Source: Gigantopelta aegis
Taxonomy: Eukaryota > Mollusca > Gastropoda > Neomphalida > Peltospiridae
Length of the DNA stretch: 64,000 bases
Direction of reading: 5' to 3'
Assembly: GCF_016097555.1 (NCBI RefSeq)
Contig: NC_054702.1
Coordinates: 108,149,227-108,213,226, forward strand
Position 1 is the stretch's first letter, and every line of letters begins with the position of its first letter. The translations under genes and the position numbers were made by a program. Positions 8,227-63,369 of the stretch are shown here, piece after piece. The notes under the pieces were generated by a model. It had not been told where the DNA came from. It worked only from the letters and a program-made list of their open reading frames with translations, and made no database searches.

Positions 8227-8309
8227 CATTTCAGGACTAATCTTCACTCCCCTTAATTTTTCTCATGGAAACGACTGAAAACTGAATACTACCACACCCT
8301 GGACAAACT

Positions 8310-10737
8310 TGTCTAAATCTAGAAACAAAAAACTGCAGTATACAGAAACACATTCTATACCTGGTCTTTTAGTATTAATAGACTTTGAAAAAGCATTTGA
8401 CTCAGTCTCGTGGCCCTTTATAGAAAAAGCATTACATATATTTAACTTTGACTCCTCAATAAAAAGATGGATAAAAACTTTATATAAAAATTCTATGTCC
8501 TGCGTAATACAAAATGGTCACATATCAGAAACATTTAAACTTGAAAGGGGATGCAGACAAGGAGATCCTCTCTCTTCATATATTTTTTTTAATTTGTGCT
8601 GAAATTCTTTCAATTTTAGTTAGAAATTACAATAATATAAAAGGTGTTTTTATTGATGGGGCGGAATACAGACTAACAATACGCAGATGATACTACTTTT
8701 ATTCTTGACGGGACGTCCCAGTCTCTGAAAAATACAATGCTTTTACTTGATTACTATTAAGATATTTCTGGCTTAAAAATCAATTACACTAAGGCCATGT
8801 GGATAGGCAGTAAAAAATATTCAAAAGATGTATATCATCATGTGCGATGGAAGTTAGAATGGGGTAAAGATACATTCAGCCTACTTGGTATTAATTTTAA
8901 ACTTAACTTAGATGACATTATAGAATATAATTATAACTTAAAAATTATAGAAATGCAGAATCTAATGAAGCTTTGGTCAATTAGAAAACTGTCTGTTCTT
9001 GGAAGAGTTACAGTTCTAAAATCTTTAATCATACCTAAAATCATCAATCTTTTCCTAACTCTTCCAAATCCACCAAAACACATGATTCAAACTTTTAAAC
9101 ACGTTTTTTAAATTTATTTGGCAGGTTTAACAACAAAAGATTTTATTATATATGGTGATTATTTTATTGAAATTAAAAAGAAAAACATAAAAAATATGTT
9201 TTGGCGAGATGTTTTATGCAGCTGGACACTAGTTCAAAAACATCAAAAGTTCCAAATTACTGAAGATATACAGGGACAAAATATTTGGTTTAATAGTAAA
9301 ATACTGTTAAATAATGAACCATTTTTATACAAGAACTTTATTAAGAAAGGTATTATTTTTATTAGTGATCTGCTTGATGAGCAAGGAAAAGTTTTAAATT
9401 TCGAATGTTTCACACAAAAATACGAAATAAACACAAATTATTTAAGTTATGTATCGTTGGCGAATGCTGTAAAAGCTTTTTTACAAATGCAAAACAGTTT
9501 CAATATAACAGAATATATTGCAATCAAAATACCAATTCTGCCTTTTAAATTAAAAATGTTAAACAAGAATGCATGAAGTAAGGCTATATACAGCACTTTG
9601 AATAATAATAAAAAAAACCTCCTAAAGCACAAACAAAATACGCAGATAAAGGTCTAATATTTGATCATCATACATGGACAAAGTATTATCTTGTACCATT
9701 TAAATGCGTGAAAGACACTTCATTAATATGGTTTCAATACAGATTGCTACACAGAATTCTTAGTACCAATACATTTCTACATATGATAAATTATATTGAT
9801 TCAAATAAATGCATTTTCTGTAATAATCTCCCAGAAACGCTACAACATCTGTTTTACGATTGTGACAAAGTCTGAGAACTTTGGGAAAATGTTGAAAAAT
9901 GGATATTTATAAAAACTGGAATTCGCATTTCATTTACTAAAAATAAAGTTATTTTTGGTATGATAGATGATAAAAAGGCAAAAAATATAAACTGGTTAAT
10001 AATTAATGTTAAATATTATATTTATTCAATGAAGATGGTTAAAAGAAATCTATGTATTGATACTATAAAAGTGATTCTACAAAAGAAATTTCATATAGAA
10101 AACTAGATCTATTATAAAAACTGTGAATATGATAAATTTAACATCAAATGGTCCAAGTGGCTTAATCTTTTCAATTAAAAAATACTAGAAACAACTTTGA
10201 TTTTATCTACAGTATATAAATGTCTACTCAATTTCAACTTTACAAATAATATTCTTGTGGGGTTTTTTATCTCTATTATTAAATCTCACTATTCCATCTC
10301 TATTATGATAGTGTTACAATCACGATATTTCAAACTAACTAATATCTTCTCTCCTTTTTTTCCCCTTTTTCCTTTGTTTTTCTCATCATTGTCCACCTTT
10401 GTAATATTACAACCACTTTGTTTTTTCAACCTCGTTTTCTCTGTACTAGCCCATCCTCAGAACAAATAAACATAACAAATAGCTTACGGTTGTATATTGA
10501 GTCCATTTCAATATCCATGATTTAGTTTATATATAAAAAAAAGGAATGTACTGTACAATTAAACAAACTGTGTACATTTTATATATCTATTTAAATGTGT
10601 GCGTATGTTGAATATATTTGAATATTTTCTGTGCATATAAATTCTGTAAGGCATTGAGGCAAGGCACCCCAGCCCTGACTTTGCCAAAATGATCTGGGGG
10701 AAAAAAAAGAAGACAAAAAAAAAAAAGACAAAAAAAA
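8310..10737 (+). mobile_element. 5'-truncated non-LTR retrotransposon (LINE), decayed
   Basis: Reverse-transcriptase core: LIDFEKAFDSVSW (motif with catalytic Asp) then GCRQGDPLSS, in one frame at 8309-8602. A frame change in the T-run near 8583-8590 separates this from CAEILS. The YADD box at about 8683 is again in another frame, two bases short of its expected context. The thumb and connection region continues as open frames at 8797-9111 and 9118-9576. A third block (about 9640-10110) holds the C-terminal zinc-knuckle-like CIFCNNLPETLQHLFYDC, with a stop shortly after. An A-rich tail at 10700-10737 closes the copy. The GCRQGDPLS style suggests the L1/Tx1 group; this is from memory. Inactive. 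Confidence 0.8.
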
Positions 10738-11333
10738 AAGATTACCAGTGAAGTACAATGATACGCCCGTCAGGAGTTTGATGGAAAACCATAGACATTA
10801 ATGAATATGTTACGGGTATGATTCAATTCTAATTATGTGAAATTTTTGCAATGGGATAGATGAATAGTTTGTTTTGGACAGACTACTGACGATACTGTAT
10901 CCATTGGAGAAGGTGCTGTCCGATTAATGAAGTTATTCTTTTATTAGAATAGTCCTGTATGCAAGATACGATTCGGACAAGGATTTACTGTTATGTGCAG
11001 TAGATTGTGAAAAGTAGGTCACAGTGACCTATTAATAGTACTCGACACACCTCCATCCCAAGTTGTCCCTACATGAGGTTTGATGGTCCTGTATGCATCT
11101 GTATGCAAAATATGGTCCTGACAAGGATTTACCGTTACTATAATAGACTGTGAAAAGTAGGTCACAGTGGCCTAGTAATAGTACGCTACACACTGCCATC
11201 CCAGTGTTCCTACATGTGAGGTTTGATGGTCCTGTATGCAAGATATGGTCCGGACAAGAAAAAGTTAACAGACGGACGGACGGACAGAGCCATACCATAA
11301 TACAACCCATCATAGATGGGCAAATAAAAACGG
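10738..11333 (+). mobile_element. Element with internal tandem repeats, longer copy
   Basis: Begins TTACCAGTGAAGTACAATGA and ATACGCCCGTCAGG, ends with TAGATGGGCAAATAAAAA, giving imperfect inverted ends. Inside, a unit of about 134-143 bp recurs: the marker TGCAAGATA or TGCAAAATA followed by GGACAAGGATTTAC appears near 10960, 11103 and 11237, each followed in the first two units by GAAAAGTAGGTCACAGTG. A GACGGACGGACGGACAGA stretch lies before the right end. The layout (short ends, minisatellite core, no ORF) recalls Helitron-like or Pearl-like molluscan elements; that assignment is unsure. Confidence 0.65.
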
Positions 11334-17126: not shown

Positions 17127-20100
17127 CTAGAAAACAAAAATACTTAGTGATTATTACTATGTAACTTTTCGCAAAACAATAATGACATGTAAATAACAAA
17201 CAATTTCAAGTAAGAGTATAATTACAATATTTTGTTACAGATTGGAAATTCCAAATATTATGTTTCACTTGCAAGTATGCCATATGACTTTCAACACCGA
17301 CATAACTAATATAAACAAGAAGATAGTAAATCTATTATTTTTTAAAACACAATTTTATTTGGCCCTTTAGACAACAGAAGCACAAAATTTGGCTAATAAC
17401 ATGTTATTATCTTTTTTCCAAATGCTACTGTAACTAATTGTATTTTGTTTACAGCATATTTTATATGTAGTGTTTTTAATGAAGAGATTAATATTTTCCA
17501 AAACTGGACTACACGTATGTTGCATATAAGCTGCCACAAGAGAATGGTGGCATGGTGTCTCAAATGAAGATCATTAATAAACAAAACATACTGGGTCAAA
17601 ATTATGAAGCTTGTTTTTCTTAAAAACAGGTGTTTAAGCATTAAAAATATATGTAGTTACATGTGTAAGTGAAAAACAGGCTTTGTAAATTCAACTCATT
17701 ACCTTTCATAAACATTTTTAAGTACATATATAAAGTGACAGATCCTATTTTTTAAACACTACTTTTTAGTGTACGTTTCACTTCTAAAGCTATTTTTGAT
17801 AATTTAAATTAGAAGTACTTTCATTTTATTATTTAGAATATTTGTTTTCGTAAACCTGAAGTGGTTCTGGTCATTCAGGCTATTGTAATACCCCAAAATG
17901 CATTTTTTATAACATGTTTGTCTGAGAAATAATGGGTTATCGAGATAAGCTCTAATTATTTTTAGACTGTATTTTCCCATTTAAACATCACAGACTTTAG
18001 CTTCTCTCTATAACATTATCCAAACATGTTGCAGCTTTGTAGATTAATCAAACTTAGTGTACATTTTTACAGGCTGAAACTAGGGTCTGTGCCTTTAATA
18101 AAATCATGTGATGTATTTGTTCTCACCACAGTGGGACTATATGGAGGTGAAGGTGACAGAGACAGGACTGGGCTGTGTTTCTTGCGTGCCGGCGAGGCGA
18201 TGTAGCGGCGTTCAGAGAAGCGTGTCTCCTCCGAGTAGTAGTACTGGCTGTTGGTCATCACCTCCACGGTGTTGTCGGGCAGCCCAAACTCCCGCACCAC
18301 GCGCAGCTGGATCTGGGAACTCACCGCACGCTTGTCCGAATACGGCAGGGCGTACGCTCGCTGGGCCACCCTGGATCGCTGTAGCTCGGCTTCTCGCTGC
18401 AGCATTGTAACTAATGTGTTACGGTCAGGAACTGCAAATAACAGATGACTGAAAACTGAATACACTGCTGAGATAGTTATATAGACAGCATTTATGTCTT
18501 TGATTATGGATTATTTTTAAATAGCTGAATGCTCCTCATAACAAAATATAAGAGAAACTACTCTGCTTTTCACTCATATCACATATATTTGTCATACAGG
18601 AAACACTCATTTTTATTGTCTATATATTTTTCATTACTCCAAACAGAGTGGGTTATTTCTTAAGACAACAAATATTGTTTAATGGATACTAAGAATTCCT
18701 AACCTTTATTAAACGATATACTAAAACTTACACTATTAGATAACACAATCAAGTCTGCTCCAAAGTTAACAGTCACAAACAAGCAAGAGGCAAGAGAAAA
18801 ATAAGTGATAAATAATAGTAGTTTTATCTTACCGGGTATCGTACCAGCAGTGATGTCCACTGTGGATGCTGGAGAGAGAGCATAGGGCATGAAGATAAGT
18901 GACAATATTATCTTACCGGGTATCGTGCCAGCAACGATGTCCACTGTGGATGCTGGAGAGAGAGCGTAGGGCATGAAGATAAGTGACAATATTATCTTAC
19001 CGGGTATCGTGCCAGCAATGATGTCCACTGTGGATGCTGGAGAGAGAGCGTAGGGCATGAAGATAAGTGACAATATTATCTTACCGGGTATCGTGCCAGC
19101 AATGGATGCCCACTGTGGATGCTGGAGAGAGAGCGTAGGGCATGAAGATAAGTGACAATATTATCTTACCGGGTATCGTGCCAGCAATGATGTCCACTGT
19201 GGATGCTGGAGAGAGAGAGTATAGGGCATGAAGATAAGTGACAATATTATCTTACCGGGTATCGTGCCAGCAATGATGTCCACTGTGGATGCTGGAGAGA
19301 GAGCGTAGGGCATGAAGATAAGTGACAATATTATCTTACCGGGTATCGTGCCAGCAATGATGTCCACTGTGGATGCTGGAGAGAGAGCGTAGGGCATGAA
19401 GATAAGTGACAATATTATCTTACCGGGTATCGTGCCTGCAATGATGTCCACTGTGGATGCTGGAGAGAGAGCGTAGGGCATGAAGATAAGTGACAATATT
19501 ATCTTACCGGGTATCGTGCCAGCAATGATGTCCACTGTGGATGCTGGAGAGAGCGCGTAGGGCATGAAGATAAGTGACAATATTATCTTACCGGGTATCG
19601 TGCCAGCAGTGATGTCCACTGTGGATGCTGGAGAGAGAGCGTAGGGCATGAAGATAAGTGACAATATTATCTTACCGGGTATCGTGCCAGCAATGATGTC
19701 CACTGTGGATGCTGGAGAAAGAGCGTAGGGCATGGTGTAGTGCCGGTCCTCCACCATGTACAGGGTGTCGGGGATAGATGACATGTTGATCATTCTCACT
19801 CGACTCGAGTCCTGCTCGTGAGCCAAGGACAGTTGGTCTTCTAATACAGACTGAAAAACAAGTTACAATGTGATGATGTATAAAAAACAAATAATAATAA
19901 AAAACAAACACCAAAAATCACTATTGTATTAAATGTTTACTTTTTCAAAATGGTCAACTAAAAGTTGTATGTACACATGGAAGAGAAAGTGGGGTCCTCA
20001 GCCATCATGAAAAAACAGTGTTCATCAGAGTATGTAATGAAACATTCTTCAAATACACAAACATTCTGCAAGACTTGTATGTGATGCAGGAAGGTATTAA

Positions 20101-23100
20101 CAATGGGTGCATATTGTTAAAAGGGGACAGGGAGGTTAAATGATTTGCATATAGTGGGGTTAAACCAACCTTTGCTTCTTCATAGTAAGGAATGAACAAT
20201 CGTGGTCTCACATATATTCCATTGTTCTTCCCTCGAACCCACGCACAAATTTTGTGTCCCGGACTTTCATCTCCAATCATGTGCGATGGAGGGGTACTGA
20301 CAAGCCCTCGTTTTATTGCACCGTTTAGAGTATCGTTACTGTATGGTATCACATGGTCCAGCCTGACCAATGGTAATATGTCCGCCAAGATATCTCTCAG
20401 CTCGACATCATTCAAGTCTCGTTTCTTCACACCTTTCTTAGCAACACTGTGAGCGGTATGACTCAGAAGATTTGGTTCTGAAAAATTATTACATTGTTTA
20501 AAGAACAATAGAACAATGATGCTAAAACCATGTCAATTTAAAGTTAGTCTTGCCACACCTTATTATAACAATGCAAAATGTAAACAATTTTAATAATTGT
20601 GTGAGCACTATCAATGGTAGGAAGAATGATTTTCAGTATTCATTATAAAACTGTTTTTTTGTAAATAACTTCAATTTGCTTTGACATAAGAAGAAACGTA
20701 AAAGTGTTTTGGAAATAAGAAGAAAAAAAAAAATTGTGTGCAATTTAAAAATCAATTAGTTCAGAAATAAATAACTTGTAGTAAATTCCATAGTATGAAA
20801 AAAGGCGTTCCCTGTGGGATGCACTATTTAAATAAGCGCTGAGTCTAATTTTTTATTATTATTTTTTTATTATTAATATGTAGGTGATAAGAAACATACA
20901 TAACATTATACCCAGACCTGAAGGGGTGAATGCAGTTAAAAAAAGAAGAAAAAAAAAAAAGAGAAGATTTTTCAAAATTATTTTGGGTTAGGTGGGTGGT
21001 ATCTAGCCCACATGACTGGCACTTTATGCATGGAATGGCAGGTTCCTAAGGCCCGATATAAAATAAAATGTCATAACGGTCTCACCTCTCTCTTCTATTC
21101 TACGGACCAGCTGCTGCTCACCCCACTTCAACACTGCAATCAGCACATCCAGCTCTCCTGCCTGAAATTAAAAAAGAAAACTTAGCTCACCACTTTATAT
21201 TATTGGTCTGTTTTTGCAACGTGTTACTCCTGTTAGTAGATAATGGTAATTTCCCTATTGACTAAATTCTTACAAACAGTCCCCGTTTCAAAACTCCTCA
21301 GTGGAGGTTGATTTATTTGTTACATCTGGAACCGATGTATGGCCTGGAGGTGTCTTTAGCACAAGAATACAATTACAACATAGCCAGGACCTGTTGGTAC
21401 AAAGTGATCCTATGTGGAATATTCCTTTTTAGCTTAATTTCTAGTGCTGGACTCTTAGGACTCCTACACAAAGAATCTCTGTTCTAATTCCGTCACATTT
21501 ATAATCCATTAAGTTGTTACAAAAAACAAAACTTATGGTATTACATGTATATATAAAATGCATGTTCATAAAGCAGTAAGATAAAGCGAAGTGTATAATT
21601 TACCTGCAGGAAATCTGAACGAAGTGCCTCTATCATGTACTCTTTGCTAAGATCATGCAGCACCGGGGAGTGTGCGATCTGTATGAACTCTTCCTTCAGG
21701 TAGTGTAGTCCTTGTCGGTGAACCCAGGGAGACCCATGTGCTTCGGAACTCCAGTTTAACACAGATGTCAGGTTATCAGTCGAGATGTTGTCAACAATGA
21801 TGTCCTCGGAACCTACAATGCATGAATAAATCAAACTATTAAATTTAGCATATCTTGTACTTTGCTAAGGACATCTAGTTTGCGTGATCAAGAAGACTAT
21901 TTTTGCACACACAAAAGACAAAAAATGTGTTTAAAAAAGCATAAGTATGTCGATTTTTTAATAAACATTTTCATGTCAACATATACAACAGAAAATATAT
22001 GTATGTGAGTGGTAAAGCATCCGATCCGCCTGATGCGCAGTCGGTCTGGGATTGATCCCCGTCGGTGGGCCCATTGGGCTATTTCTCGCTCTAGCCAGCG
22101 CACCATGACTGGTATATCAAAGTCTGTGGTGTGTGCTATCCTGTATATGGGATGGTGCAAATAAAAGATCCCTTGCTACTAATGAAAAAAATGTAGCGAG
22201 TTTCATTTTTATAAGACCAAATGTTTAAACATCCAATAGCCTCCGATTAATAAATCAATGTTGTCTAGTGGTGTCATTAAACAAAACAAACTTTATATGT
22301 GAGCCCAGAGAGATGAGTAAGAGATTTTTTTCTTTTGGCTATCTATAGATAACAAAACTCTTTAACCTGGAAGTTGATTGAGAATTTCTGCTTAAAACTA
22401 ACGCTACAAATATTGAAATCATACATGTACATAAAATATTAAAGCTGTAAACTTGTCTTATTATGTGGTAAACATTTTCTAATGCAAACTACAAAGGGGA
22501 GCTATCACTTTCACTCCCAAACATCACCGAGTCTAGTTCAAGAAGAGTAATTTTTAGCCAACCCTTTAGTATCAGTATGATATTTATGGATCCCCATAAT
22601 TTTATTTATGGGAGCAATTCATCATTCCTCACAATGTTTTTTATAAATGTCAAAGTCTGCATGACTCACAACTAGTTTTAAATTAATACCTGTATGTTCA
22701 CTATCAATCGACATGCATGGTTAACTCTCAGAAACAACATGAAAATCAGCATTTTTAATACATTGTACCTCAGGGCTCACCCTGGATCAAAAATACCTTA
22801 GCCAAAAGGGATTTTTATTTGCCATAATTGTTTTGAGCAGTACCGTAGAAAATACTTATATATATGAAAATGTATCTTTTTCAGCTAATCTGAACATATT
22901 CCCGGATCAAAATCAAAGACAGCTATGGGGGTAGCGGCAGTCAATATATTACTTAAGATGTTTTAGCGGTGGATGTTTATGGAAGGTGTTGTTTTTACTT
23001 TCCTTTCTTCTTCCTTTTTTTCCCCCAAACAAACATTTGAGAGCTAATATGTTTTTCCAAACAGAGCTAGGGTTCGATCTTAATGGTTACCTGATCGCTC

Positions 23101-26100
23101 CTGGCAACTGAAAATACTGATGGGCAAGTCAAACCCCTGGTCCCAGGTTGCCCACCTGGTGACAAAAATATTTATTTGCCATTTTTAGTCCAGCTTCTGT
23201 TTGTCTGTGAATATAGGGCCTAATGCCAATTTTACCGCATCCACATAGTGTTTTCTTGTACACGTAGGTCTTCTGCAAAAGTCATCTATGTTTATTATTT
23301 GTTTGAACTATGGATTTATTATTTGTACCAATAAGGTATCTCCAGTGGTTTTCGATATCCGCTATTTTCGTTCATTTCCGAGACAAAAGATAGATATACT
23401 GTTAACACTGTGATTGGAAATTTGTTTCTTTGTATCAAAATGAGAATTAAGATAAATTGTTTGTTAAAGTTAACCCGGATTACAAATAAACACAATTACC
23501 ATGATGTCGGCCGTTCTTATTGTAGGATGTGACATTACGTGAGGACTTCCGATATTGATGCCTTTGAAATAACTTGGCCATTTGATTCTTACTTACACTT
23601 CGGTTGAGGTGTTCCGAGTGAGTTTATTTTGAACTATGTTGTTTTTTTCCCCACTACTTTTTTGTTTTAGTTGCAAAATAAAACCATGCTGACAAACAGT
23701 TTATTTTATATATGGAACAAAAATGTTCACAAAATTTAAGGAAAAGAATCTCGGGCTAGTGATAATATCTGTAGTCTATGTATTTTTATATTTACTAACC
23801 CAGCTGACTAGTATATATATCTTTCTTTTTTTCAATAGACCTACACACCTGGAACATGATGAATTTCATCGGCAGTATGGTGGAATGACTAGATGTTAAG
23901 GTACAATGTATATGAAAATAATGTTATATTGACAGTCCGGGTAGAAGGAAGGAACTGTAATCTGCATGTCTATGTTTTAAATGAATGATATTTTATTTTA
24001 TTGACCGACACTAAAATATTGTTCTATGTCTAAAATAAATGTTTTGTCACAGTATTGTTGTTTGGATATTGATAAATGTATTTACTTTACAATCTGAAAA
24101 AGTTGAAGTCGGGTAAGTGAAAAATCCCAAGGGCAAGAGAAAGTGCTGCAGAGCTCATTATTTCTTTAAAATAGCATTCTTTATGTTGGTTTGAATTGCT
24201 TTATTATTATTATTATTACCGGCCTCGGTGGCGTCGTGACAGGCCATCGGTCTACAGGCTGGTAGGTACTGGGTTCGGATCCCAGTCGAGGCATGGGATT
24301 TTTAATCGAGATACCGACTCCAAACCCTGAGTGAGTGCTCCGCAAGGCTCAATGGGTAGGTGTAAACCACTTGCACCGACCAGTGATCCATAACTGGTTC
24401 AACAAAGGCCATGGTTTGTGCTATCCTGCCTGTGGGAAGCGCAAATAAAAGATCCCTTGCTGCCTGTCGTAAAAAGAGTAGCCTATGTGGCGACAGCGGG
24501 TTTCCTCTAAAAACAGTGTCAGAATGACCATATGTTTGACGTCCAATAGCCGATGATAAGATAAAAAATCAATGTGCTCTAGCGGCGTCGTTAAATAAAA
24601 CAAACTTTACTTTTATTATTATTATTATTCTTATAAAGTAACCCATCAATTCCCCACCCCAACAATTTCGTAATTTGTGCCATGTTGTTGCTTTTGTCAA
24701 TTTCAGACTAACAATGCTGACTTCACATGTTATTATGTACAACTATTTCCCGATGATTAATAAATCAATGTGCTCTAGTGGTGTCATTAAATAAAACAAA
24801 CTAACCTTTTACAACTAATCCATTTATGTCTTTTTTTTTGATAAAATTAAAAAAACCGATAATGAAATTGAAATTTTACAGTCTATTTAAAACCACCTAA
24901 CTTTTTATATATAATATTTTATTGAGCAAATGTCATAATTATTGTAAATTAATTTTATTCAATGTACATTTAACTGCAATTTGTATCAATGCTGCATGTT
25001 CATTTCCTGCAATCATGACCTGCATGCGTGCTCTCAACCATGGGTGCAAAATTAACAAAGACAAAGGAAATAAATGAAACCGCAGTTAAGTATTAATTGA
25101 TGCGAACATCTATTATTTTTTGACAAATTTACATCAACATTTACTTGTGTGTAATTTTATTGTTTAATGTCCACAACAATGTCTCTTGATACCTGCGGTC
25201 TCAGCTGACTGTGACCTATATTCACAAACACAGCTTGGGAAAGCCTACTTGTCATTCGGCCCTGAACTAGCATCTGTATTGAATTGACATGCATTGTCGG
25301 TCAGTTTTTATTGCTTTGGTTCAAAGACTTTACAAAGTTAGAAAGACAGGCTACAGATATTTGCTTTCGTACATGTTAAACACATGCTGTTAAAATTAAT
25401 AACCGTGATTATTAAAATAAGCAAACCAGAGGTTCCCGGGTCACCATCTCCAAATTTTATAAAATTTCACCCATTTATACTTCCATATAAATAATGGACG
25501 CATGCAAAATTTTAGGGTCAAATTCTAATTAGTTTTGAAATTATGGTTGATCAAATGGTTGTCCCATTTTTGACATTTGCGACTGTCATGTGATTTCGGG
25601 CACCTTTTGAATGCTAATAACTTAATTCATTATAAAGCTATCAAGCTACAATTTGCTGTATTAGCTAATTCATACCTGGAGAATCTATAATGGTACTCCA
25701 GGGCTTCTAGATTATGGTAGCCCCACTCCCATGGCTAGTGATATTCAATGTTGGGCTAGTAAATAAATACTATTGCCTTGCCCAACGGCTAGTGAATCTT
25801 TTTTGTCAAATGTTGTAGTTACGTCTATTTTGTAAATATAAATATTCTGACCCCACCCCAACCCCCCAATGTTGGTATTTTTAAGCTCCATCTCGCTGTT
25901 TAGGTGACATATCTGATTATTACTATTATTTAGTAAAATTATATTAACTTAAAATAAAGTAGGGCTAGTGAATTTTTAATCAAGGCTAGTAAATTTTTAA
26001 AATCACTGATCCCATGGCTAGTGGATTTTATAAAAATTCTAGAAGCCCATTTTGTACATATCTATCATAGTTTCTGACCTGGAGACCCCTAAAGTTTAGT

Positions 26101-29100
26101 TTTTTATCATTCGGAAATGATATTTTTTATATTTTGGGAGACCAAATTTACTCCCTAATTATTTATCACAGATACAAACTATTATTTGATTTGAAGTATA
26201 TACCTATAGATGTTTCTTTATGAGAAAGCTTATCTGAATCAAATGAAATATTAATGTGTAGTTAGGGTCCAAAGTTGAGAAAAAAATATAAAATGTGAAA
26301 AATATACCTGCATACCAGGGGTGGTTTGACCATGTGAGCAATTATCCAGCACCATAAGCTTTTAATATGATTAACTAATACATATTTGGTATGTATGTAC
26401 CAAATTTAAACTTTGTGGTTCAACTCCTTGATAGGTACATGTAAATGAACCTTTTTTTAAATGTTAATAAATATCCCATCGGGACGAGTCGTTTTTCATA
26501 CAATGTGTGACTACTCTCGACATCATTTTTAGGGTTGCAGATTTGTTAACCTTAAAACATTTCACACTAAAATCAATGAAAATTTGGTACATATATGTAT
26601 ACATATATAGGCATATAGCAAATTCATATTAGTTACTCAGTCATATTAAAAGTTCCTATAGGTGAAATATGAAAATTAGATGAGAAATGAAATTGGAAGA
26701 GTGGTGGTGTTGTGCGTTACATACATGTATACAAACAAGTATGTGTGTACATTAAGACTATCATCTCGACTCATCGCTAGGGGATAATTACTAGTATTTT
26801 TCAGATCTTTCTGGATACATTTTGATTTAAAAAAATGAAAAAGTGCAGTTTTTGTGCACTAATGCAAATGTTTACTTCGTTCATGAGCTCTTGTACGGGG
26901 GTTTTAAATGTAAGTTCATTTAACTATCAAGGAGTTGAGCCACAAAGTCAAAACTTTGTACATATATAGCTATGCACATGAGTTACTCGTGTTAAAAGCT
27001 CATGATGCTGGGTAATTGCCCACGTGGTCAAACCACCCCTGGTATGCAGGTATATTTTTCACACTTTATTTTTTCTTCCCAACTTTGGATCCTAACTACA
27101 CATTAATAAAAATTTTTTTATTCAGATAAGCTTTCTCATTAAGAAACATCTATAGGTATATACTTCAAATCAAATAACAGTTTGTATCTGTGATAAATAA
27201 TCAGTGAGTAAAAGTCCCCAAAATTTAAAAAATATCATTTCTGAATGACTTTAGGGGTCTTCAGGACAGAAACTATGCCAGATATGTACAAAATGAGTAC
27301 AATTATAGATTCTCCAGGTATGAATTAGCTAATACAGCAAATTGCAACTTGATATCTTTATAATTAAAAAAGTTACTAGCATTCAAAAATCATCCGAAAT
27401 CACTTGACACAGTCGCGAGTGCAAAAAATGGGTCAACGGGCCCTGCATTTGACCAGTCATAATTTCAAAACTACTTAGTATTTGGACTTAAAAGTTTGCA
27501 TGCATCCATCATTTATATAGATGCACAAATGGGTGAAATTTCATCAAAATTGGAGATGGTCACCTGGGAAGATTTCTGGAATTTGGTTGTTTTGGCATGG
27601 AATGACCCTATTATTATGTTTGAGGTCTTGGATAGATTATATAACTGTTTGTTCACATAAGAAGATAGAAATTACTTAGATAAATTTTTAGCCATTCTCA
27701 AATTTTATTAGCCATTTTTTTTTTAATTAGCCAATGGCTAATTGGGTTACTGACAATGCAAGCCCTGATACCTTAAACAGTTGGTTAGCTGCTGAATTCT
27801 ACAAAGCAATGATGTCATACTGAAGAAAACATTATCATTACTATAGGCAAGAAGTCTAAACTGACCAATGTTCTTACTGCGTCCTTTTGAAATTATTTTC
27901 TATATACCTTCATTATAAGCACACAAATTTGCGGATTGATCCAATACATTAACAGAAAACATACATATAGGAACGTAGCTTCAATTTGACAAAGGAAAGA
28001 ACATGGACATACATTTTTTTTTAAAGTAAGCTATAAACGGCCCAATAGACTGTAGACTCATTAACAAACATATCATGAATACATGTCTGTCTGTCCGTAT
28101 GGATTCAGTTTATGACGCTTTGAGACACTACATCACAGGCTGACTATTTATCAAAGAAGAATATTTACAGTTGAATGTTTACATTTCAATGAATTTATAG
28201 TCATAATCGATGGAGTGTAACAGATGCTATAGCTGAGGAATCATAACGTTATGCACACTCTAAAAGAAATTACATTTGGTTGTCCAATTATGAATGACAA
28301 TCTCTATAAGCCACCTTAAATAAAACATATAAAACCTGTAAAAGTAAGATTGTTTTATTTAACACCATCACTAAAGCACACAGATCAACTAATGATGAGC
28401 CACTGGACGTCAAACACACATTTAATACTACTAGTAATTCTGACACATACATAAACATGTAGTCATCAGAGGAAACCTGTTGTTTCACCAACAGGAAGCA
28501 ATCTTTTATATGCACTTCCCCACATACTATGGTCTTTGATATACCAGTCTCAGGATTACAGACATATCAGGGTTGTATCTAGCAGGGGTGCAAGGGGAGC
28601 AGGCAGTTGCATCCACAGAAAAATATGAATAGGTAGCAATCTTTAGTTTAAAAGTGCTATTTTTGTGCACCTGTAGAAGACCCTCTATTACTGTGCCCTG
28701 ATTGTTTTTGGTAGTCACCCCACTTATTTCTGGCTAAATATAGCCCTAAATATAAATATTACCATGTGAGAGTATTGTAAAATCTAAAAACTGACATCGC
28801 TGATAATTCTTGTTAATAATTAAGCATCACATCCTCAACATAAATATCATTATAAAATGATGTAAACTTTAACTGTTTTATTGGATCACCTCCTTGAGAG
28901 AGCACAGTGAAATGGAAGAACTGGATCACCTACCTTGAGAGAGCACAGTGAAATGGAGGAACTGGATCACCTACCTTGAGAGAGCACAGTGAAATGGAGG
29001 AACTGGATCACCTACCTTGAGAGAGCACAGTGAAATGGAGGAACTGGATCACCTACCTTGAGAGAGCACAGTGAAATGGAGGAACTGGATCACCTACCTT

Positions 29101-30285
29101 GAGAGAGCACAGTGAAATGGAGGAACTGGATCACCTACCTTGAGAGAGCACAGTAAAATCGAGGAACTGCCCGATCTGGTAGATCTCCATGGCCTCATCC
29201 ACCATGGTCATCTGACACTTGCCGCTGGACACCATGGCCTGCACCTCGCTCAGACTGCACATACTCGAGCTGCCTCGGACGATGCACGACAAGTCCACAC
29301 AGTCCTGATAGATTGCGTTCAACAGGACGCGAGCGTACCGTCGAGAGATCACAGACTCATCTAACACTATCCGTGAACGAGTGTGCAATGCCCGCTCCGT
29401 AAGCTCCTCACCAGAACGGGCTCGACGGATTATCAAGTTCCTGAAAAAAGGTGACCTAGCTGCCAGGATGGCCTTGTGGCATGGGAATTCGAGCCTAGAA
29501 GTCCTGTTAGAGTACTGCATAGCATGCGAGGCATCACTGGTGCTAGCAGTCATCAAGTCGTACTGTTCGGTTTCCGTGGAGAACACGAGGACAGCATCAC
29601 TGTATTCCCCGGTCTCCAACAGAGTCCTAAGGTCATGCTCCACGGCATTAGGCACACCAAACTCCAAAGCCAGCTTTTGAAGTATCTCGCTGTTCTCCAA
29701 ATTGAGCTCTTGCGTATTCAGTTCATCAGTATACAAATATCGCAGCAATGCAGAAAACAGTGTCACATCCACACCTGAGGTTTTTAACTTTACCGGGACT
29801 GATACACCATAGTCTGGATACCGCGACAATAGATCACGGAAAAATGGACTCCTAATTGCAAGCAAAGATCGGTGGGCAGGGAAACATGTTCCCTTATATA
29901 ATAAATCAACATCTGTACATAATTTCCAGTCATATAATGTGGACAAGTCTTGCCGAAGTGTGCTGGCATTAGGCCGAGCTAGGTTTGCAGCCAGTGCAAG
30001 TTCTTTGAGCGATACCAGTGCCTCATATTCCTGAACAAGGGCACTAACATCTCGCACATGCCAAGACGATATTAATTCCCGTAAAGATTTCCCGTAATCT
30101 AATGATCTACTGTGTCGTCGAACTCGTATTAGCTTACGCCGCAAGGTGGCAAATTTGGAGGCCTTTTTCTTTTTCTCCCGTGAACTGAGTTCTCCATCGG
30201 AAACACCGTACACCGCAGAAAGACGGGCAAATGGAGACTTCGGAGCCGACTGACCACGGTCTGGAAGTGAGGAATTTGTTCCCAT
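16980..30285 (-). CDS. BTBD7: BTBD7, BTB/POZ domain protein 7 (seven coding exons)
   Basis: Spliced CDS: 30285-29139, 21812-21604, 21161-21086, 20477-20170, 19850-19676, 18431-18127, 17126-16980. All junctions are GT-AG and all phases agree, giving 788 residues. BTB domain 1 is at about residues 121-215 (CTDVDLLYKGTCFPAHRS), BTB domain 2 at about 228-380 (FPCHKAILAARSPFFRNL), followed by a BACK-like region with SHTAHSVAKKGVKKRD and GIYVRPRLFIPYYEEAK, the last matching remembered vertebrate BTBD7 closely. A lysine/arginine-rich stretch lies at 37-59. The N terminus MGTNSS fits an N-myristoylation signal, as in vertebrates (MGANAS). The C-terminal part is shorter than the vertebrate protein (about 1130 aa). 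In vertebrates BTBD7 acts in epithelial remodelling and branching and lowers E-cadherin; function here is inferred from homology. Two exons have tandemly duplicated donor sites (see separate entries). Confidence 0.93.
17564..17700. repeat. Dispersed repeat of the AACAGGCTTTGTAAATTC type
   Basis: Contains CTTGTTTTTCTTAAAAACAG, AGGTGTTTAAGCATT, GTAGTTACATGTGTAAG and AACAGGCTTTGTAAATTCA. Related copies are at 30955-31078 and 49705-49960. Inverted-repeat character suggests a MITE, inside BTBD7 intron 6. Confidence 0.55.
17731..18098. mobile_element. MITE with (TT)AAAGGGACA ends, copy 1
   Basis: Left end TAAAGTGACAGATCCTA with TTTTTAAACACT, right end AACTAGGGTCTGTGCCTTTA. Copy 2 at 47680-48043 has the same order of internal blocks (AGCTATTTTTGATAA / AGCCATTTTTGATAA, AATGCATTT, GTTGCAGCTTTGTAGATTAA). 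About 365 bp, no ORF. It lies in BTBD7 intron 6. Confidence 0.7.
18127..18431 (-). CDS. BTBD7: BTBD7 coding exon 6
   Basis: Acceptor GTTATTTGCAG, donor GTG|GTGAGA, entry phase 1 and exit phase 0. Encodes VPDRNTLVTMLQREAEL, then QRSRVAQRAYALPYSD and IQLRVVREFGLPDNT, clear equivalents of the vertebrate segment with QRAYAL and REFGL. A serine/proline-rich tail (SPSPPYSPT) ends the exon. Confidence 0.9.
18831..19733 (-). repeat. BTBD7: 11-copy 84-bp tandem array of an exon end plus splice donor
   Basis: Each unit repeats the last 58 bases of BTBD7 exon 5 (encoding MPYALSPASTVDIIAGTIP and one base) plus the first 26 bases of its intron, GTAAGATAATATTGTCACTT and six more. Exon-end positions on the minus strand are 19676, 19592, 19508, 19424, 19340, 19256, 19170, 19085, 19001, 18917 and 18833. 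Spacing is 84 except one 86 and one 85. Copies are nearly identical. All 11 keep the donor CCCG|GTAAGA. The unit is 28 codons and open in the exon frame over the first copies; the 86-bp unit breaks the frame. The last copy is followed by unique intron sequence, so it probably marks the original junction on the intron side. Confidence 0.95.
19676..19850 (-). CDS. BTBD7: BTBD7 coding exon 5
   Basis: Acceptor TTGTTTTTCAG, entry phase 0, exit phase 1. Encodes SVLEDQLSLAHEQDSSRVRM, then INMSSIPDTLYMVEDRHYTM, equivalent to vertebrate VRMSNVPDTLYMV. The end shown uses the first of 11 possible donors; joining CCC G to exon 6 TT CCT gives GTIP-VPDR, as in vertebrates (EIP-VPR). Use of donors 19592 to 19256 would add 28 residues per unit in frame. 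Confidence 0.88.
20170..20477 (-). CDS. BTBD7: BTBD7 coding exon 4
   Basis: Acceptor AATTTTTCAG, donor AAAG|GTTGGT, entry phase 1 and exit phase 0. Encodes EPNLLSHTAHSVAKKGVKKR, LNDVELRDILADILPLVRLD, KRGLVSTPPSHM and NNGIYVRPRLFIPYYEEAK. This is the most conserved part of the protein relative to remembered vertebrate sequence. Confidence 0.93.
21086..21161 (-). CDS. BTBD7: BTBD7 coding exon 3
   Basis: 76-nt exon with acceptor TTAATTTCAG and donor AGAG|GTGAGA, phases 0 and 1. Encodes AGELDVLIAVLKWGEQQLV and RRIEER, matching the KWGEHQL segment of vertebrate BTBD7. Found by joining flanking exons. Confidence 0.88.
21604..21812 (-). CDS. BTBD7: BTBD7 coding exon 2
   Basis: Acceptor ATGCATTGTAG, donor TGCAG|GTAAAT, entry phase 1 and exit phase 0. 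Encodes GSEDIIVDNISTDNLTSVL, NWSSEAHGSPWVHRQGLHYL and SKEYMIEALRSDFLQ, equivalent to the BACK-like region after the second BTB domain. WVHRQ is the most recognisable landmark. Confidence 0.92.
22003..22290 (+). repeat. SINE copy
   Basis: Head GTGAGTGGTAAAGCATCCGA with a B-box-like GGTCTGGGATTGATCC, core TGGTATATCAAAG and ATAAAAGATCCCTTGCTAC, tail TGGTGTCATTAAACAAAAC. In BTBD7 intron 2, opposite to the gene. Confidence 0.85.
22291..24218. other. BTBD7 intron 2, unassigned part
   Basis: No exon or RNA found. CAGGGCTCACCCTGG at 22769-22783 looks like a hAT-type left end; AAGCCCTG at 27761-27768 is a possible but unproven right end. Scattered GGCTAGTGA motifs (near 23754) echo those in the insertion at 25700-26045. 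Confidence 0.35.
24219..24605 (+). repeat. Full-length SINE with a tRNA-like head, second head type
   Basis: Head CCGGCCTCGGTGGCGTCGTG, B box GGGTTCGGATCCC, then a conserved middle (ATCCATAACTGGTTCAACAA, GTGCTATCCTGCCTGTGGGA) and tail GTCGTTAAATAAAACAAAC. (TTA)n lies on both sides and probably includes the target duplication. Almost identical to the copy at 39124-39515, so recently active. Confidence 0.92.
24751..24806 (+). repeat. SINE 3' end fragment
   Basis: CGATGATTAATAAATCAATG, then GCTCTAGTGGTGTCATTAAA and ATAAAACAAAC only. Severe 5' truncation. Confidence 0.75.
25433..27570. repeat. 2.1-kb imperfect inverted repeat in BTBD7 intron 2
   Basis: The left arm (about 25433-26455) and the right arm (about 26908-27570) are reverse complements over some 660 bp. 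Marker pairs are GTCACCATCTCC / GGAGATGGTCAC (outer), CATACCTGGAGAATCTATAA / its complement near 27304, TGCATACCAGGGGTGGTTTG / its complement near 27030, and CAACTCCTTGATAG / CTATCAAGGAGTTG (inner). The spacer is about 450 bp. The left arm is longer because it carries an insertion at 25700-26045. No ORF. Confidence 0.8.
25700..26045. mobile_element. Short element inserted in one arm of the inverted repeat
   Basis: Bounded by CAGGGCTTCTAGATTATGG and AAAATTCTAGAAGCCC, which form a terminal inverted repeat of about 12 bp. It interrupts the left arm between GGTACTC and ATTTTGTAC; the right arm has these joined. Inside each end is a GGCTAGTG-type motif. Ends resemble hAT elements, but no 8-bp target duplication is evident. 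Confidence 0.65.
27640..28354. other. BTBD7 intron 2, unassigned part
   Basis: No exon or repeat core recognised apart from a TTAGCC-rich patch and AAGCCCTG at 27700-27770, possibly the right end of a hAT-like element. Confidence 0.35.
28355..28560 (-). repeat. SINE fragment, old
   Basis: Tail GTTTTATTTAACACCATCAC, core GAGGAAACCTG, AATCTTTTATATGCACTTCC and GGTCTTTGATATACCAGTC. Head lost, many substitutions. Confidence 0.65.
28883..29168 (-). repeat. BTBD7: 7-copy 41-bp tandem array of an exon end plus splice donor
   Basis: Units start (plus strand) at 28883, 28923, 28964, 29005, 29046, 29087 and 29128. On the minus strand each unit is the last 30-31 bases of BTBD7 exon 1 (encoding QFLDFTVLSQ and one base) plus GTAGGTGATC. 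The exonic copy differs from the intronic copies at two bases (GATTTT against CATTTC), while the intronic copies are nearly identical to each other. Five extra copies keep the donor CAAG|GTAGGT; the most distal copy has lost it. Confidence 0.95.
29139..30285 (-). CDS. BTBD7: BTBD7 coding exon 1 (both BTB domains)
   Basis: Starts at ATG 30283-30285, giving MGTNSSLPDRGQ. An in-frame GTG just upstream is ignored because the ATG fits the vertebrate N terminus MGANAS. Carries the basic region, BTB domain 1 and BTB domain 2 in a single 1147-nt exon. Donor CTCTCAAG|GTAGGT, exit phase 1, at the head of the 41-bp array. Confidence 0.93.
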
Positions 30286-34150: not shown

Positions 34151-35638
34151 CTCTTCAAAAGAAGAAACGCAAAACCAAATTGTCGTAACATTTGGAGAAT
34201 TGATTTAATTATTGAACGGTGAGTCCGATAATTACCAAATGTTGGAGGATTGTTCACAATTCACTCTAGTCCATTGTGAGTAAGTGATAGGACACACCAC
34301 CAAGGTCAAGGTCATCTGGAGTCAATACCGGGTGTGGCCTCCGCGTGTGTTGACAACTGCCTGGCACCGCCTGCCCATTGAAGCAACCAGAGTACGGATG
34401 ACGTCCCGGGGGATGGTGGCCCACTCGGCCTGCAAGGCTGCTGCCAGCTCGGGCAGGGTCTGGGGCTGTGGTTGTCGCAGGCGTCTGTCCAACTCGTCCC
34501 ATAGATGCTCAATTGGGTTCAAATCCGGTGATATCGATGGCCAAGGAAGGACATTAATGTTGTTGTTCTGTAGGAAAGCCGTTGTGAGACGTGCTGTGTG
34601 AGGCCTGGCGTTGTCATGTTGGAACACTGCATTGGCGTTGGCCATAACTGGAACGATGTGTGGCCGGAGGATCTGGTCAATGTAGCCCTGTGCATTCAGG
34701 TTGCCCTGCACGTGGACCAGGTCAGTTCTGCCAGTGTGTGAGATGGCTGCCCACACCATGACACTACCCCCGCCGAATCTGTCCACTTCCTGCACGCAGT
34801 TTGACGCATAACGTTCACCACGACGCCTATACATGCGACATCTTCCATCATGACGTCGGAGCAGAAATCGGGACTCGTCACTGAACCACACCTGTCTCCA
34901 TCGCAGTTGAGGCCATTGTCGATGAATCTGGCACCACTGCAGTCGGAGTCGACGGTGTTGTGGTGTTAAGATGACACCTCGAACTGGATGTCTGGCACGA
35001 ATTCCTACCTCACGTAGGCGGTTCCGTACGGTCTGGTCGGATATCCTGCGCAAACCTGGTATTGCTGCGGCTGTGGAGGTGGCAGTAGTCAATCGGTCCC
35101 GAAGGTGGCATACCCGGATGTAGCGGTCCTGCCCGGGGGTAGTGACCCATGGTCGACCGGATCTAGGGAGGTCACGTGTTGATCCATGTTGCTGGTAACG
35201 GTCCCACAGTCTGGAGATGGTGCTTGGGGACACATGGAATGCCCTGGCAACGGCCGTTCTGGATTCGCCTGCGTCTAGTCGGCCGATGGCATTGTTTCTC
35301 TGCGGTTCACTGAGACGTGGCATGTCCTGGATTGTCAACTGTCGGCCAGATACAGAGGCCAGGCAAGCGAACACCCTGCACTTTTATACTGTCGGTGTTC
35401 ATGTTGCACGTGCAGACAACGCACGTGCAGTGGTGACATGGTTTGCACGTGGCTGCGTTTTTGCGAATATTCACATTTTGAAACTTTATTTTACAGTAGC
35501 TGCATTTTATCGAATGTAACCGTGGGAATGTGTTTGGGACATGCAATGACCTTATATTCACAAAGCATGAACCAGTAGGAAACATAAAATCGGAGTTATA
35601 ACCCATTTGTACCCTTTTGCGTTTCTTTTTTTGAAGAG
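34151..35638 (-). mobile_element. Complete Tc1-like DNA transposon
   Basis: 1488 bp between TA dinucleotides (34149-34150 and 35639-35640). Terminal inverted repeats start CTCTTCAAAA and continue through GAAACGCAAAA, about 25 bp with one or two mismatches. One uninterrupted transposase gene inside. The intact ends and frame suggest a recent insertion. Confidence 0.92.
34322..35323 (-). CDS. Tc1-like transposase, intact
   Basis: 333 residues from MPRLSEPQRNNAIG, the usual start of this family; an upstream in-frame ATG at 35374 would add 17 atypical residues. The N-terminal half is a paired-type helix-turn-helix pair (AVARAFHVSPSTISRLWDR, then GRP as the hinge-like GRPR-type motif, then TVRNRLREVG). 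The catalytic triad is D in FSDESRF, D in FQHDNARPH, and E in NPIEHLWDEL, with 34 residues between the second D and E (DD34E). No stop or frameshift. It cuts and pastes the element at TA sites in the nucleus. Higher GC than its surroundings supports a recent arrival. Confidence 0.95.
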   Translation of the reverse strand: MPRLSEPQRNNAIGRLDAGESRTAVARAFHVSPSTISRLWDRYQQHGSTRDLPRSGRPWVTTPGQDRYIRVCHLRDRLTTATSTAAAIPGLRRISDQTVRNRLREVGIRARHPVRGVILTPQHRRLRLQWCQIHRQWPQLRWRQVWFSDESRFLLRRHDGRCRMYRRRGERYASNCVQEVDRFGGGSVMVWAAISHTGRTDLVHVQGNLNAQGYIDQILRPHIVPVMANANAVFQHDNARPHTARLTTAFLQNNNINVLPWPSISPDLNPIEHLWDELDRRLRQPQPQTLPELAAALQAEWATIPRDVIRTLVASMGRRCQAVVNTRGGHTRY

Positions 35639-62929: not shown

Positions 62930-63070
62930 CTAAAGTAAGAAGGGGTACCCAGCACCTGTTATTACATATTTGTTTCTCCCTGTTGACGTATTTGCATTGC
63001 AGTGAGTAAGGGTGACTATATGCAAGCTAAACAAATCTGTCTATTAACATGTGCAATTTTTATTAACCTA

Positions 63071-63369
63071 TTATGTCTAACAGTAACAAAACACAGACCC
63101 AACATAGAACATATTATGTCTAACAGTAACAAAACACAGACCCAACATAGAACCTGTTATGTCTAACAGTAACAAAACACAGACCCAACATAGAACCTGT
63201 TATGTCTAACAGTAACAAAACACAGACCCAACATAGAACCTGTTATGTCTAACAGTAACAAAACACAGACCCAACATAGAATCTGTTATGTCTAACAGTA
63301 ACAAAACACAGACCCAACATAGAACATGTTATGTCTAACAGTAACAAAACACAGACCCAACATAGAACA
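63071..63369. repeat. 43-bp minisatellite, 7 copies
   Basis: TTATGTCTAACAGTAACAAA marks each unit at 63071, 63114, 63157, 63200, 63243, 63286 and 63329. The copies are almost identical. It lies about 140 bp upstream (in transcript sense) of the 62929 exon. Confidence 0.95.

Follow-up and report, generated by a model that had tools for sequence, protein, structure and literature searches.

The window (the whole stretch of 64,000 nt that was analysed; G+C content 35%) contains a gene with a BTB domain on the minus strand. Two tandem arrays lie on donor sites of this gene, and the exon numbers used below derive from splice-site reading. The following features were delimited:

29139-30285, minus strand: coding exon 1, from the ATG at 30285 to the donor at 29139, with the BTB domain
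28882-29169, minus strand: array 2, seven tandem copies of 41 nt (31 exonic plus 10 intronic) at the donor of coding exon 1
21604-21812, minus strand: coding exon 2
21086-21161, minus strand: coding exon 3, its start placed by visual inspection
20170-20477, minus strand: coding exon 4
19676-19850, minus strand: coding exon 5 (175 nt), up to the first donor of array 1
18824-19734, minus strand: array 1, eleven tandem units of 84 nt running from coding exon 5 into intron 5
19592, 19508, 19424, 19340, 19256, 19170, 19085, 19001, 18917 and 18833, minus strand: last exonic bases of ten further donors CCG/GTAAGA
18868-19711, minus strand: eleven acceptor-like sites TCTCCAG/C, with the first base after AG at 19711, 19627, 19543, 19459, 19375, 19291, 19205, 19121, 19036, 18952 and 18868
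19145-19230, minus strand: unit 7 of array 1, 86 nt, with 2 nt added in the pyrimidine tract and its donor (19170) out of frame
19060-19144, minus strand: unit 8 of array 1, 85 nt, with 1 nt added inside the candidate mini-exon
18127-18431, minus strand: coding exon 6, the target acceptor of intron 5

The N-terminal coding exon matched the Pfam family BTB in two stretches (E 2.8e-20). No Pfam family, BACK included, was found at E 0.001 in the open frames containing exons 2, 4 and 6, which were scanned singly. The gene is provisionally called BTBD7, after the human protein; the domain search shows BTB only. Intron 5 comprises 1,244 nt. Some 17 kb downstream of exon 6, also on the minus strand, lies an open frame with Kelch repeats (504-1463).

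Array 1 was detected with TRF (18824-19734; period 84, 10.8 copies, 97% matches) and was split by unit into 11 copies, the first starting at 19734 on the minus strand. The unit starts are spaced by 84 (six times), 86, 85, 84 and 84 nt. Cut at CATGCCC, the unit consists of 59 exonic and 25 intronic nt; the division into 58 and 26 nt made in the first-pass annotation describes the identical unit, cut one base later. On the minus strand the end of exon 5 reads ATACCCG/GTAAGATAA, and after GTAAGATAA the final copy passes into unique intron. The donor CCG/GTAAGA is intact in 11/11 units, and GGTAAGATAA donors number 11 in the array, the last exonic base of the first being 19676. The earlier description of eleven tandem copies at the end of exon 5, each with a donor, was thus borne out by TRF and by the unit split. 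The unit spans the exon-intron boundary, a defining trait of mirage minisatellites.

Array 1 is real and beyond chance. A stretch of 31 bases covering the donor and the unit junction was found in 10 exact occurrences, compared with 0 in 100 shuffles, and within the window it is confined to array 1 (10 matches at up to 3 mismatches). The same stretch had no exact match in viral_contigs, and Rfam gave no match at gathering scores. The 25 intronic nt of the unit were aligned to the start of the unique intron with gaps of 10 and 3 nt, which is compatible with a derivation of this part from the beginning of intron 5 itself.

The copies are very similar (97% matches, with near-identical interior copies), in agreement with the earlier view of a recent or homogenised expansion. 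Copy 1 alone carries CTTTC, the remaining copies having CTCTC, and changes of their own were also found in the interior units 2, 3, 4, 7, 8 and 10. On translation, units 2, 10 and 11 show I>T or I>V. Two changes in units 2-6 are synonymous and one is not, which is too few to judge coding constraint. The intronic part is free of changes in copies 1-10, whereas 13 are found in the exon-derived part (post hoc p 0.012 to 0.014, depending on the cut); the 13 are made up of 8 listed changes and 5 from units 7 and 8 that were counted visually.

The array 1 donor matches the consensus at 7 of 9 positions; of the gene's five other donors, four match no better. Since this donor sequence is identical in all 11 copies, it gives in itself no reason to prefer the first. 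When spliced to exon 6 at 18431, donors 1-6 leave the frame open and donors 7-11 run into a stop. The period corresponds to 28 codons with an open frame, and each of the five further in-frame donors (out of ten) would add 28 residues, as had been proposed. The break in the frame had been assigned to one unit of 86 bp. This holds for unit 7, from which on the donors (7-11) all lead to stops, but unit 8 with its 85 nt had been missed. A TAA at 19163-19161 lies between the indels of units 7 and 8, so that read-through of the whole array is closed, although the two indels total +3. A possible masking of donors by a hairpin (AAGATAA/TTATCTT in the intronic part) was considered and rejected: the two motifs can pair, but shuffled sequences folded equally well, with z values of -0.98 and -0.30, and of -0.75 for array 2.

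In addition, an acceptor-like site, which in most copies reads TCTCTCTCCAG, is present in every unit, 36 nt before the donor (37 nt in unit 8). The first of these sites (19711) falls within exon 5. Ten of the 11 sites have 13 pyrimidines in 15, and that of unit 3 has 12. Outside the array, the gene strand carries 1,738 YAG sites, of which 15 reach 13. The gene's own acceptors of exons 2 to 6 score 10, 13, 8, 11 and 10 pyrimidines, so that by this score the acceptor-like sites equal the acceptor of exon 3 and surpass the other four. A branch-like motif, CTTAT, is located 27 nt upstream of the end of the AG. With an acceptor-like site and a donor in every unit, each unit is a possible mini-exon. 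Putative introns between adjacent units would be 48 nt long (50 nt before unit 7), and those from donor 1 to farther units 132-807 nt. Nine of the ten candidate single mini-exons are in frame, each adding 12 residues, and 36 of the 45 pairs are open; a chain of all ten is interrupted at unit 8.

Array 2 has GT donors at 29139, 29098, 29057, 29016, 28975 and 28934, and its seventh copy (28893) is without GT. Straight after the exon, R* results from each of the five GT donors beyond the first, and likewise from the seventh copy. As every later site leads to R*, the full protein can be obtained from the first donor only. The exonic copy differs from the later copies in GAT/CAT and TTT/TTC, and the repeats have in common a D>H change relative to the exon. 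The D>H of array 2 and the I>T or I>V of array 1 imply that the copies are not strictly kept as coding sequence. In both arrays the exonic copy is unlike all later copies, the last copy is divergent and the interior copies are nearly identical. Divergent edges around a near-identical interior are the edge pattern of homogenised arrays and a trait of mirage minisatellites.

A third large minisatellite was found at 63065-63368 (43 nt x 7), where no evidence of an exon junction was seen. In random placements, at least two of the three large arrays of the window fell on the six donors in 0.5% of cases, and both gene arrays fell on donors in 4.4% of placements within the gene body; both values are post hoc. 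To look for degenerate mirages at further junctions, six donors and the acceptors of exons 2, 4, 5 and 6 were each aligned to 500 nt of flanking sequence; none was kept. In 200 shuffles per site, the scores of the exon 1 and exon 5 donors were reached 0 times, that of the exon 4 donor 2 times, that of the exon 6 donor 16 times, that of the exon 5 acceptor 18 times, and those of the remaining sites at least 38 times. The match at the exon 4 donor was rejected because it is an isolated stretch of 21 nt that stays within the exon and leaves the junction uncovered.

Tandem repeats that extend across exon-intron boundaries have been described in the globin and Adh3 genes of amphioxus and were named mirages (PMC3087553). 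Many of their units carry AG/GT signals, and length as well as somatic instability are reported (PMC3087553). Similar arrays are described for lancelet PGBD5, with TnC cited likewise (PMC3902484). The architecture of array 1 is like that of these amphioxus mirages (Adh3, BflGb6, BflGb9; TnC, PGBD5), the gene being a different one. Since amphioxus mirages are already in print, the kind of array found here is known.

On these grounds array 1 is probably a mirage-type minisatellite, recent or homogenised, with the first donor used by default. The donor segment of exon 5 and intron 5 would have been tandemly duplicated into the intron, and the duplicates would then have been expanded and homogenised via slippage, unequal exchange or conversion. 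Donor 19676 most likely stays the main donor. The extra copies would usually be excised within intron 5, leaving the protein unchanged, and the remaining donors and acceptor-like sites would act as low-level cryptic sites at most. The sequence itself shows the array, its units, splice-like signals and frames, and array 2; it represents a single haplotype. Transcription of the locus, the use of one donor over the others and differences between individuals are inferred. Regular splicing that is undisturbed by the repeats is favoured by the predicted R* behind each downstream donor of array 2, and it has a counterpart in amphioxus, where the Adh3 data and a globin RT-PCR are said to suggest undisturbed splicing (PMC3087553). 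Against this explanation stand the in-frame position of donors 2-6, the likeness of all 11 donors and the human transcripts that retain such repeats (PMC2812944). In lancelet PGBD5, moreover, a gene model placed most of two repeats in an exon; this was unconfirmed, and the authors rejected it and excluded the repeats from the protein (PMC3902484). The distribution of changes in array 1, with none in the intronic part and 13 in the exon-derived part, may be a hint that the donor part is constrained, and would then speak against an array that is neutral.

Other published cases connect boundary repeats with the gain of introns. In human segmental duplications, tandem repeats at exon-intron boundaries are reported as a possible source of introns (PMC2812944). 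They share with array 1 the tandem arrangement and the repeated splice signals at an exon boundary; the human study compared genomic with transcribed sequences, whereas array 1 was read from genomic sequence. In a potato gene the duplication of an intron-exon (acceptor) boundary is described, and the new intron was detected; the same source treats 24-bp repeats of fission yeast and the Rogers model (PMC4974935). For Drosophila, tandem duplications are said to permit alternative splice patterns when their length is a multiple of three (PMC2891723). In these intron-gain cases and in array 1 alike, a duplicated segment carries both a donor and an acceptor signal, from which a new intron and exon could arise. 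The potato case differs in that the acceptor boundary was duplicated and an intron detected; in array 1 the donor side is present eleven times, as read from the DNA.

The acceptor-like sites allow a bolder reading, which we consider unlikely. The unit would be a self-contained cassette of acceptor-like site, 36-nt mini-exon and donor, and the array a living intermediate on the way to new introns and exons. A polymorphic copy number would then set the number of 12-residue (ASTVDIIAGTIP) or 28-residue modules spliced into the linker of the BTBD7-like protein, possibly varying by individual and tissue. The narrower proposal, that at least one 36-nt mini-exon (ASTVDIIAGTIP) is inserted between exons 5 and 6 with intron gain under way, is improbable as well. 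It draws on the 13 pyrimidines in 15 at 10 of the 11 sites, as against 15 of 1,738 YAG sites elsewhere, on the branch-like CTTAT motif, and on the frames, which stay open in nine of ten cases for a single mini-exon and in 36 of 45 for a pair. The conversion of mirage copies into exons has been published as a model (PMC3087553, Figure 7 legend). The proposal is weakened by the 48-nt introns between neighbouring units (50 nt before unit 7) and by the failure of the ten-unit chain at unit 8. Very short exons are usually recognised poorly, which also stands against it. The site furthermore occurs within exon 5, and there the demands of the coding sequence could suffice to explain it.

Still less probable is a length-variable splice switch, in which donors 19592 to 19256 are used to a useful extent and the linker before exon 6 grows by 28, 56, 84, 112 or 140 residues. 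The five extra donors are intact and in frame, and in consensus match they equal or surpass four of the gene's five remaining donors. In the human study repeats at exon boundaries are often retained: for 66% of intron modifications there is also support for a transcript in which the repeat is kept (PMC2812944). A unit length that can be divided by three, as in array 1, is held to allow alternative patterns (PMC2891723). Against such a switch, donors 7-11, which are closest to the acceptor, all lead to stops, and each downstream donor of the sister array 2 does so too. The amphioxus arrays, moreover, are reportedly spliced in a regular manner (PMC3087553). A period that is a multiple of three combined with an open stretch of 26 nt is not rare: among donor-like sites on the gene strand outside both arrays, 98 of 147 are followed by 26 open nt in that frame. 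With stops behind all downstream donors of array 2, a chance of one in three for the length and 98 of 147 for the frame, the open frame of array 1 may be luck. The first-pass interpretation stands with respect to the anatomy, the in-frame donors and the near-identity of copies; it had missed array 2 and the acceptor-like site in each unit, by which 36-nt mini-exons become a rival switch.

An assembly error at a true locus with one or a few copies is very unlikely, since the private changes in several units and the private indels in units 7 and 8 imply that the units are not one read copied, and the array is shorter than 1 kb, even though the BflGb6 mirage is stated to appear aberrantly assembled in the draft genome (PMC3087553).

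Array 1 offers, with 11 identical donors facing one acceptor, a natural test of the choice of the spliceosome among equal sites. Its acceptor-like sites, one per unit, also let it serve as a test case for the model of such arrays turning into new introns. The presence of two such arrays in one gene suggests that this genome may undergo the process often. Should the species lie outside the cephalochordates, mirages would have a wider range than in the papers found.

Further repeats and mobile elements were noted in the window. A GTGCTCTAGTGGTGTCGTTAAATAAAAC-like motif occurs at 24574, 24770, 38751, 39473, 57857, 59032 and 60599 (both strands, up to 3 mismatches), with 7 copies compared with 0 in 100 shuffles; it is perhaps the tail of a short interspersed element. 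An unbroken frame of 353 codons at 34322-35383 encodes a Tc1/mariner-like transposase (DDE_3, HTH_Tnp_Tc3_2). A fragment of a reverse transcriptase (RVT_1) is present at 8279-8602, followed by further open frames up to 9576, and is likely a LINE remnant; the frame at 8761-9111 had no Pfam match. At 10955-11240, a 143-nt unit with GGTCACAGTGACCT is present in two tandem copies.
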